The notes under the pieces: generated by a model | Told to the model about the DNA's origin: nothing | Databases searched by the model: none | What the model saw: only the letters and a program-made list of their open reading frames with translations | Shown here: positions 9,048 through 11,080 of the stretch, piece after piece | Layout of the letters: each line of letters opens with the position of its first letter | How positions within the stretch are numbered: the stretch's first letter is position 1 | Assembly (NCBI GenBank): GCA_026415985.1 | Contig: JAOAGA010000056.1 | Span: 1 to 11,784, forward strand | Direction: 5' to 3' | DNA length: 11,784 nt | Source of the DNA: Pseudomonadota bacterium | GTDB lineage: Bacteria; CALINM01 | Position numbers and translations under genes: made by a program

Positions 9048-9959
9048 TTATGCCTCCTTTAAACGCTTTTTAATATCAAATTTCACATCAAGAACACCAA
9101 TAAAACTTATTAAAAACCACATTATATGATTGGCTAAAAAAAAGAAATAGAAAAAAAAGGCTACAAAAAGCGGTATACCAAACCTTGCAAAAAACAGGTT
9201 GGTTGTCGCAATCCCCTGAAAAAAATAAAAGGCTAAAAAATATAATGCTAAGTTAATCCCTATGAGACCCAGTCCTTTTTCGCCGAAAATGATAAATAAA
9301 AGTATCCCCAAATTGACAAGCCAGACTCCAAAGAAGCTTATATTTATATTTGAGAAGGGCTCAGCAAGACGAGGGGGTATATCGGGAAAAAGCTTTGTAA
9401 CAATATAGAGATTAACAAAACCAAAGATAATAAACTGCAAAAGAGCAAGGAAGGGATAATATTTTTTGATTAATGATTTGCTGAACTCCTGATATTCCTT
9501 CACAGCCTTTTCATCCATAACACCTTTCAGAATATTTCCCGATATGTTATCCACTTCTGAAAAGGCTTCGGCAATAGTATTTGATATTAATCCTGTCTTT
9601 TTTTCAAGAAAAGCCATAAAAAACACGAAAAATATGGAAACAATAATGGTCGATAGCATGAAAATATCGCCTTTGTTTACATTTTCAAGATAACGATATA
9701 TTAACCAGACCACGCCCGCAAAAACATAGGGATAAAACAGGTTAAAAGCAAATACCATCTGATCATTCATAAAAAGAATTACCCCGGAAAATGCCAAGGA
9801 AATAACAAGAAAAACCCTTCTGCCTTTTACAAGAGAACCCAATAGTATTCCACCAAGAAGATAACTCAGAGTCACATACAGAGTTGGTGAAACAAAAAAG
9901 GATCCAAAAATAATAAAAAGCAAAAAAATTATCTTTCTGTCATTAGCTGGTAAAAACAT
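9048..9959 (-). CDS. DUF2232 (YybS-like) polytopic membrane protein
   Basis: A 303-residue, very Phe/Leu/Ile-rich inner-membrane protein with roughly eight membrane segments, near residues 8-43 (probably two), 48-64, 70-90, 97-118, 168-190, 207-226, 229-250 and 262-288. A soluble, more charged stretch of about 45 residues (120-165) separates the N- and C-terminal sets. The C-terminal [15 protein letters not shown] matches the G-x-x-D tail I know from DUF2232/YybS proteins, and that family commonly sits between rpsR and rplI, as here. Its role is unknown; the fold class resembles integral membrane carrier-like proteins, but no transport motif is visible. The ATG overlaps rpsR by 17 bases and has no clear Shine-Dalgarno sequence, so it is probably coupled to S18 translation. 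Its end carries the L9 ribosome-binding site, and its stop lies 3 bases before rplI. Confidence 0.83.
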
Positions 9960-10203
9960 GTGTTACCGTCGTATATGGCAAAAGTGCTAACTGTCTTGCC
10001 CTTTTTATAGCGGTGCTAAGCTCTCTCTGATGCTTGGCACAGTTGCCGGTATATCTTCTTGACAGTATTTTTCCTCTTTCTGATACATACTGTTTCAGGA
10101 AATTAGGCTTTTTGTAATCGATAATAAGCTTCTTGTCTGCACAGAACCTGCAAAACTTCTTTTTTGGAACAAACTTTTTTCTATCATTAATATTAACTGC
10201 CAT
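9943..10203 (-). CDS. rpsR: 30S ribosomal protein S18, zinc-binding form
   Basis: S18 pairs with S6 and binds the central domain of 16S rRNA on the platform. The 86 residues contain the core signature: [19 protein letters not shown] (29-47), then RRYTGN (49-54) and [20 protein letters not shown]. Cys18, Cys21, Cys55 and His58 form the CxxC...CxxH set of the zinc-binding variety of S18; many bacteria carry a form without these cysteines. The start is supported by a GGAGG-type site at 10211-10216. The short THVFTS tail after LPY is ordinary. The gene follows ssb by 20 bases, and its 3' end is overlapped by the DUF2232 gene. Confidence 0.97.
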
Positions 10204-10223: not shown

Positions 10224-10646
10224 TTAAAATGGTATATCTTCTTCTAATGGTAAATCTTCAATAATATCGGAATCGCTACCGTTGCTGAAGTCATCACTGA
10301 TAGCTCCGCCCGTAGGTTTTCCTCCTAAAAACTGTACCCTCTGAGCAATAACATAAACCTTACTTCTCTTAGTTCCATCCGGTGCTTCCCACCTTCTCAT
10401 TGCAAGTCTCCCATCAACAAAAACAGACCTTCCCTTGTTTAGATAACTGGCACAATTCTCCGCCTGTTTTCCGAATACAACAATCTCAAAAAAGCCAACT
10501 TCCTCTTTGACTCCCTGCTCCTTTGTGCTGTATTTTGAGTTAATTGCAAGAGTAAAGTTGGCGACTGCAAGCCCGGAAGGGTTATGCTTTAGTTGCGGGT
10601 CAGCAGTGAGATTTCCCATCAAAAGCACCTTGTTATAGGATGCCAT
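10224..10646 (-). CDS. ssb: single-stranded DNA-binding protein
   Basis: SSB coats single-stranded DNA as a tetramer during replication, recombination and repair and recruits partners through its C-terminal tip. The OB fold spans about residues 1-110, with [18 protein letters not shown] at the start, ANFTLAIN, the [10 protein letters not shown] segment and [18 protein letters not shown] short Gly/Ser/Asp-rich linker follows. The protein ends LEEDIPF, the acidic tip that binds partner proteins. At 140 residues it is at the short end of the family (E. coli 178) because of the brief linker. A CAGGAG site lies at 10655-10660, in the end of rpsF, and the rpsF stop is 3 bases away. Placement between rpsF and rpsR is the usual one. 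Confidence 0.97.
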
Positions 10647-10649
10647 AAA

Positions 10650-10982
10650 TTATTCTCCTGTTTCTTTTTTTGGCTCTTCCTTAGGAAGATAGGGTGTAGG
10701 ATCATCAATTTTCACGGACAGATACCTCAAGACATCTGCCTGAAGATTCATCTCCTGTTCCAGTTTTTTAACACACTGCTCGTTTGCCTCATAAAAGAGA
10801 TAAACATAGTAGCCGAAGTCTTTGTGATTGATAGGATAGGCAAGCCTTCTTCTGCCCCATTCATCTTCCTTGATAATCTTTCCGTTTTTCTGGATAACAT
10901 TCCTGAAACGTGATTTAAGATTGTCTTTCTCTTCCTGAGAAAGCTCCGCCGATAAGACGTACGTCGTCTCGTAGTAACGCAT
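10650..10982 (-). CDS. rpsF: 30S ribosomal protein S6
   Basis: S6 forms a dimer with S18 on the 16S rRNA central domain. The 110 residues show the S6 ferredoxin-like fold. The N-terminal strand MRYYETTYVLSAELSQEE leads into GKIIKEDEWGRRRLAYPINH. DFGYYVYLFYEA and LRYLSVKID follow, and the charged tail is KEEPKKETGE. It is the first gene of the translation/replication block. A full AAGGAGGT at 10989-10996 sits 6 bases before the ATG, and a sigma-70-type promoter lies at 11052-11080. The leader between them can fold in ways that touch the Shine-Dalgarno sequence (see the leader entry), which fits the autoregulation by S6:S18 known for this gene in other bacteria. Nothing in the protein is unusual. 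Confidence 0.97.
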   Translation of the reverse strand: MRYYETTYVLSAELSQEEKDNLKSRFRNVIQKNGKIIKEDEWGRRRLAYPINHKDFGYYVYLFYEANEQCVKKLEQEMNLQADVLRYLSVKIDDPTPYLPKEEPKKETGE

Positions 10983-11045
10983 CTAACTACCTCCTTATGG
11001 TTAATTTTTTATTAGCCCCAAATGGAGCAAGGAGCAAAAAATTAT
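10983..11045 (-). promoter_or_regulatory. rpsF leader with a possible Shine-Dalgarno-sequestering structure
   Basis: In the - strand RNA two GCUCC copies (11035-11031 and 11028-11024) precede one GGGGC (11019-11015). The second copy can pair with GGGGC over an AUUU loop, including one U-G wobble. CUCCUU (11034-11029) is exactly complementary to AAGGAG of the Shine-Dalgarno sequence (10996-10991), so that helix could stack on the hairpin and hide the ribosome-binding site. If instead the first GCUCC pairs with GGGGC, the site is free. The complementarity is seen; regulation is inferred. I see no CCG bulge of the kind I recall from described S6:S18 leaders. Confidence 0.5.
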
Positions 11046-11051
11046 TAGGTT

Positions 11052-11080
11052 ATTTTACAAAAAATTTTTCGTTATTACAA
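11052..11080 (-). promoter_or_regulatory. sigma-70-type promoter of the rpsF-ssb-rpsR-DUF2232-rplI-dnaB block
   Basis: On the - strand TTGTAA (11080-11075) is followed by exactly 17 bases and then TAAAAT (11057-11052), matching the -35 and -10 consensus at 4/6 and 5/6. An A/T-rich run just upstream (11081-11095) resembles an UP element, as expected for a strongly expressed ribosomal operon. The predicted start is near 11045, leaving a leader of about 63 nt before rpsF. Confidence 0.65.

Follow-up and report, generated by a model that had tools for sequence, protein, structure and literature searches.

The 5′-UTR of rpsF in the window (the whole 11,784-nt stretch of DNA analyzed here, belonging to the genome referred to as G000 hereafter) is very probably an autoregulatory element of the rpsF operon, to which the dimer of the ribosomal proteins S6 and S18 binds. 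In the known S6:S18-binding rpsF leader of E. coli and B. subtilis (Matelska 2013; Fu 2014; Babina 2015), the element precedes rpsF, and rpsR belongs to the gene cluster. It consists of a stem containing the Shine–Dalgarno sequence (H1), a second stem stacked directly on it (H2), and a cytosine pair (CC) in the internal loop on the 3′ side. The leader in the window shares all of these features. Three differences were found: the window has CCA for the quoted CCG, its linker between H2 and CC is 14 nt as against about 7 nt, and ssb occupies the place of priB in the cluster. The motif itself (Matelska 2013; Fu 2014; Fu 2013) is used here as relayed in PMC4647458 and PMC10931766.

Structure of the leader and its operon

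The elements are arranged on the minus strand in front of rpsF in the order 5′-AUAAUUUUUUG CUCCUU GCUCC AUUU GGGGC UAAUAAAAAAUUAA CCAU AAGGAG GUAGUUAG AUG. The Shine–Dalgarno sequence AAGGAGGU (10989–10996), identified by sequence and by covariance model match, has the core AAGGAG (10991–10996), which forms the 3′ strand of H1. The initial annotation had claimed that CUCCUU (11029–11034) is its exact complement and that a GCUCC/GGGGC hairpin adjoins it, and both claims were borne out. CUCCUU is the anti-Shine–Dalgarno 5′ strand of H1, so that this stem contains the Shine–Dalgarno sequence. The hairpin is H2 (11028–11015), composed of the 5′ strand GCUCC (11024–11028), the loop AUUU (11020–11023) and the 3′ strand GGGGC (11015–11019). 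Since H2 begins on the base next to CUCCUU, with no gap on the 5′ side, the two stems can stack. The linker (11001–11014) follows, and then the unpaired CC (10999–11000, within ACCAU at 11001–10997) between H2 and H1.

The regulated gene, rpsF (10650–10982, minus strand; start codon AUG at 10982–10980), encodes ribosomal protein S6 of 110 aa (PF01250, 91.3 bits). It is followed by ssb (10224–10646, minus strand) and rpsR (9943–10203, minus strand), and the gene order downstream of the leader is rpsF-ssb-rpsR-DUF2232-rplI-dnaB; thus, the leader is the 5′-UTR of rpsF in an operon with rpsR. The S18 encoded by rpsR contains CRFC and NCAKH and resembles a zinc-binding form of this protein.

A putative promoter, TTGTAA-17-TAAAAT (11052–11080, minus strand), would place the transcription start at about 11045. 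The number of promoter-like sites in the window is not above chance. In another genome of the phylum, G001, the leader is preceded at a roughly equal distance by a similar element (TTGnnn-16/17-TAAAAT). A start downstream of 11030, which the initial annotation had named as counting against its reading, is unlikely judging from these sequences, with the promoter-like element closely preceding the leader in each of the two genomes.

The minimum free energy and centroid structures of the leader both contain H1 and H2. The folding energy was not unusual as compared with dinucleotide shuffles of the leader (z = −0.79; 40 of 200 shuffles were equally good), which is in line with the view that no regulatory element exists here and that the complementarity to a strong Shine–Dalgarno sequence arose by chance in an AT-rich leader. 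An exact Shine–Dalgarno-complementary hexamer with a directly adjoining 5-bp hairpin was found in 0.4% of the shuffles (the hexamer alone in 3.8%); when G–U pairs were allowed, these frequencies rose to 15% and 89%, respectively. Because of these frequencies for hexamer plus hairpin, the leader sequence alone is suggestive and not conclusive, and it is conservation that makes the layout significant. The predicted probability of H1 in the window was 0.6–0.7 and became lower once 42 nt of the coding sequence was included. In folds including at least 42 nt of the coding sequence, the upstream copy of GCUCC (11031–11035), one of two in the leader, pairs with GGAGC (10947–10943) in the start of rpsF; this predicted pairing takes the place of H1 in those folds and thus competes with it on paper.

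Conservation and covariation of the two stems

The phylum of the window is represented by three genomes in the searched set, and one of the other two, G001, has rpsF; its S6 is 55% identical to that of the window. No rpsF match was found in G002, a 92% complete genome of the same family, which may be due to an assembly gap, and a search of named genomes for closer relatives yielded distant ones only. Comparison of the G000 and G001 leaders revealed that CUCCUUGCUCCAU, GGGGC and AACCAUAAGGAGGU are all kept, and the G001 leader retains both stems, CC and the Shine–Dalgarno sequence. The H2 loop has changed (AUUU in the window versus AUAGUAA in G001), and so has the linker (14 versus 7 nt). Loss of the pairings in relatives, which the initial annotation had also held to be damaging, was thus not seen in G001. 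Many unrelated families have leaders built on the same scheme, examples being CUCCUUGCUCC..GGGGCUGCAAAACCGAGAGGAGG and UUCCUUGCUCC..GGGGCCUCAGACCAUAAGGAGG.

Two covariance models were built from the leaders of other phyla: R1 from 18 leaders with trimmed loops, and R2 from 21 untrimmed leaders, G000 and G001 being excluded. R1 matched the window in a single place, 10991–11034 on the minus strand (16.6 bits, E = 0.021), and R2 gave its best match at the same positions (24.8 bits, E = 4e-4; the next match 10.1 bits), these E-values being rough on account of shortened calibrations. The window leader is thus recognized by an independent model. In G001, R2 scored the leader at 40.5 bits, while the next match in that genome reached 17.9 bits. 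When the whole genome of the window was searched, the leader ranked second with R1 (16.6 versus 18.4 bits). In the R2 search, for which 150 of 303 candidates were scored, the leader was not among the matches listed, probably because only about half of the candidates were scored. In the newest, third set of leaders from other phyla, 32 of 60 matched at E values up to 0.1, and all 32 matches were on the rpsF strand.

Across phyla, the two stems show strong covariation. As MAFFT misaligned H2 when applied to the raw leaders, we used anchored columns and then alignment by the covariance model. In the three sets of leaders from other phyla, the covariation scores were 0.405, 0.416 and 0.434, as against 0.209, 0.183 and 0.229, respectively, for shuffled partners. 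That is, the real score was about twice that of the shuffled partners, no shuffle reached it, and structures slid along the alignment attained 0.23 at most, roughly one half of the real score or below. Sets 2 and 3 had not been used in building the model. Paired cells amounted to 93–94% across the three sets, a count that leans towards the structure since the alignments were fitted to it. The conservation in G001, the independent covariance models and this covariation together refute the view that the layout is a product of chance, which can hardly be correct in spite of the ordinary folding energy.

The Rfam scan that had been proposed for the leader was carried out with RF02893 (RpsF_leader; gathering threshold 37 bits) and was uninformative: no match was found in the window, and none was found in any of 25 other motif-bearing leaders (0 of 25), whereas the E. 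coli leader, used as a positive control, scored 110 bits. As all 25 of those leaders were missed, a negative scan with this model carries no information outside its own group, and RF02893 appears to cover a narrow group. The E. coli member has the same gene position and the same H1, H2 and CC anatomy as the window leader, and yet the model scores the former and not the latter. We therefore assign the element in the window to the broad published motif and not to RF02893 as modeled.

The cytosine pair and its counterparts in S18 and 16S rRNA

In the E. coli rpsF leader, which has H1 with the Shine–Dalgarno sequence and H2, the conserved cytosine pair mimics C719/C720 of 16S rRNA. Repression by S6:S18 is lost entirely or almost entirely when the cytosines or the strand pairing with the Shine–Dalgarno sequence are mutated, and K60 and R63 of S18 also matter (PMC4647458). 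By the role described there, CCA at 10998–11000 (minus strand), made up of the CC and a purine, is presumed to be the S18 contact of the window leader. The S18 in the window keeps AIKRAR, which corresponds to K60, R61 and R63 of E. coli S18, the residues that touch CC.

The initial annotation had noted an apparent lack of a CCG bulge and, for this reason, suggested a divergent or different leader. In this it overlooked the CC, and among the collected leaders CCA occurs no less often than CCG: CC was found at the equivalent place in 71 of 73 leaders, and the base after it was always a purine, with 23 A to 18 G in the first two sets and 18 A to 14 G in the third set. The strict trinucleotide CCG, as quoted in a review, is absent from the window, which reads CCA; given the regularity above, this is no departure from the family, whose signature is shown to be CC-purine and not CCG. 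It was also found that the 16S rRNA of G000 reads ACACCAGTGG at the site of C719/C720, the S18 site by helix 23a, and thus contains CCA, as does its own leader. Among the 23 genomes with A or G, the correspondence of the base after CC to position 721 of the own 16S rRNA was not significant (Fisher's test, p = 0.15).

The linker between H2 and CC

The linker is where the window leader lacks the usual spacing: 14 nt, as against 4–10 nt in 64 of 66 leaders. The spacing is not a defining feature of the motif. Nevertheless, such a linker, together with the lower R2 score of the window than of G001 (24.8 versus 40.5 bits), may be taken to mean that the leader is degenerate, that is, the stems persist while protein binding has been weakened or lost through the doubling of the linker, and what is left is constitutive masking of the Shine–Dalgarno sequence. 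We consider this unlikely: H1, H2, CC and the contact residues of S18 are all intact, and even longer linkers were found in two other leaders, those of G172 (24 nt; L170) and G347 (20 nt; L180), the former with a stable extra hairpin. From these two cases, insertions at this place seem to be tolerated.

The 14-nt linker may alter the geometry of S6:S18 binding. In a further reading, the leader is a linker-expanded variant in which the 14 nt act as an extra module that changes the reach of S18 to CC or adds an input, for example, temperature, the latter because the mini-hairpin UAAU/AUUA that the linker can form is paired by A–U only. This reading, in which the mini-hairpin would parallel the stable one of the G172 linker, is quite improbable. 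The mini-hairpin is weak, with a conditional probability of about 0.3.

Two kinds of additional structure were observed in other leaders. The 24-nt linker of the G172 leader (L170:87–152, minus strand) holds its extra hairpin as UUGUCU/AGACAA, possibly a third helix of the motif. The H2 loops of L125:79–197 (minus strand; G100) and L127:112–233 (plus strand; G366) are 86–89 nt long, apparently reflecting a large insertion inside H2.

The competing fold

The GCUCC copy at 11031–11035 (minus strand), which overlaps CUCCUU, had been proposed to compete for GGGGC, so that two mutually exclusive folds would constitute a switch. As a regulatory mechanism, this corresponds to a riboswitch-like leader with two states: the pairing of this copy with GGGGC frees the Shine–Dalgarno sequence (ON), and H1 with H2 hides it (OFF). 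The repeat of GCUCC is present in the window, and the pairing is possible on paper; however, it is 5.4 kcal/mol worse than H1 plus H2, and its probability is about 0.03. Among 38 leaders, the complementarity for the competing pairing was 112, the same as for dealt-out partners (112.3), while that for H2 was 189 (control 154, sd 3). Among 65 leaders, the pairing of the anti-Shine–Dalgarno strand inside the H2 region had a mean probability of 0.01, as against 0.09 with the loops shuffled, a control that also breaks extensions of H2.

G001 was the single exception, with a probability of 0.56 for the competing pairing. In its leader (L029:1434–1483, plus strand), a 9-bp hairpin, CUCCUUGCU/AGUAAGGGG, is possible between the anti-Shine–Dalgarno strand and the 3′ strand of H2, and its formation would release the Shine–Dalgarno sequence. 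This hairpin counts in favor of two states, but it is made possible by the loop of that leader by happenstance, and the leading G of the upstream GCUCC copy is U in G001. A dedicated alternative-hairpin switch is not a conserved property; a functional alternative pairing of the copy is unsupported, and a two-state leader is very unlikely in the window. Of the switch as initially conceived, the sequestration of the Shine–Dalgarno sequence beside a stacked hairpin and the control of rpsF by S6:S18 hold, while the two-fold arrangement and the significance attached to the missing CCG do not.

Proposed mechanism and implications

The S6:S18-binding leader remains our reading. The present analysis shows the structure of the leader with its conservation and covariation, as well as the conserved CC and the conserved contact residues of S18; for the binding, the repression and its direction, we infer from E. 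coli and B. subtilis how the element would work. When S6 and S18 are in excess of the available 16S rRNA, the S6:S18 dimer would bind H2, CC and H1. The bound dimer would stabilize H1, in which the Shine–Dalgarno sequence is paired with CUCCUU, and translation of rpsF would be blocked; the coupled downstream genes, ssb and rpsR, would fall along with it. In the ON state, H1 would be open and H2 kept, a state favored by ribosomes, for which a second dedicated hairpin would be unnecessary; in the established mechanism, it is enough that H1 opens in opposition to its closure, which the protein stabilizes.

The window leader is a genuine, conserved and ordinary S6:S18 rpsF leader with one unusual spacer, and it comes from a poorly sampled phylum. 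The known range of this widespread autoregulatory RNA is thereby extended to that phylum, of which the searched set contains three genomes, and the linker between H2 and CC of rpsF leaders is found to be expandable. A model of the rpsF leader broader than RF02893 would find many more leaders.
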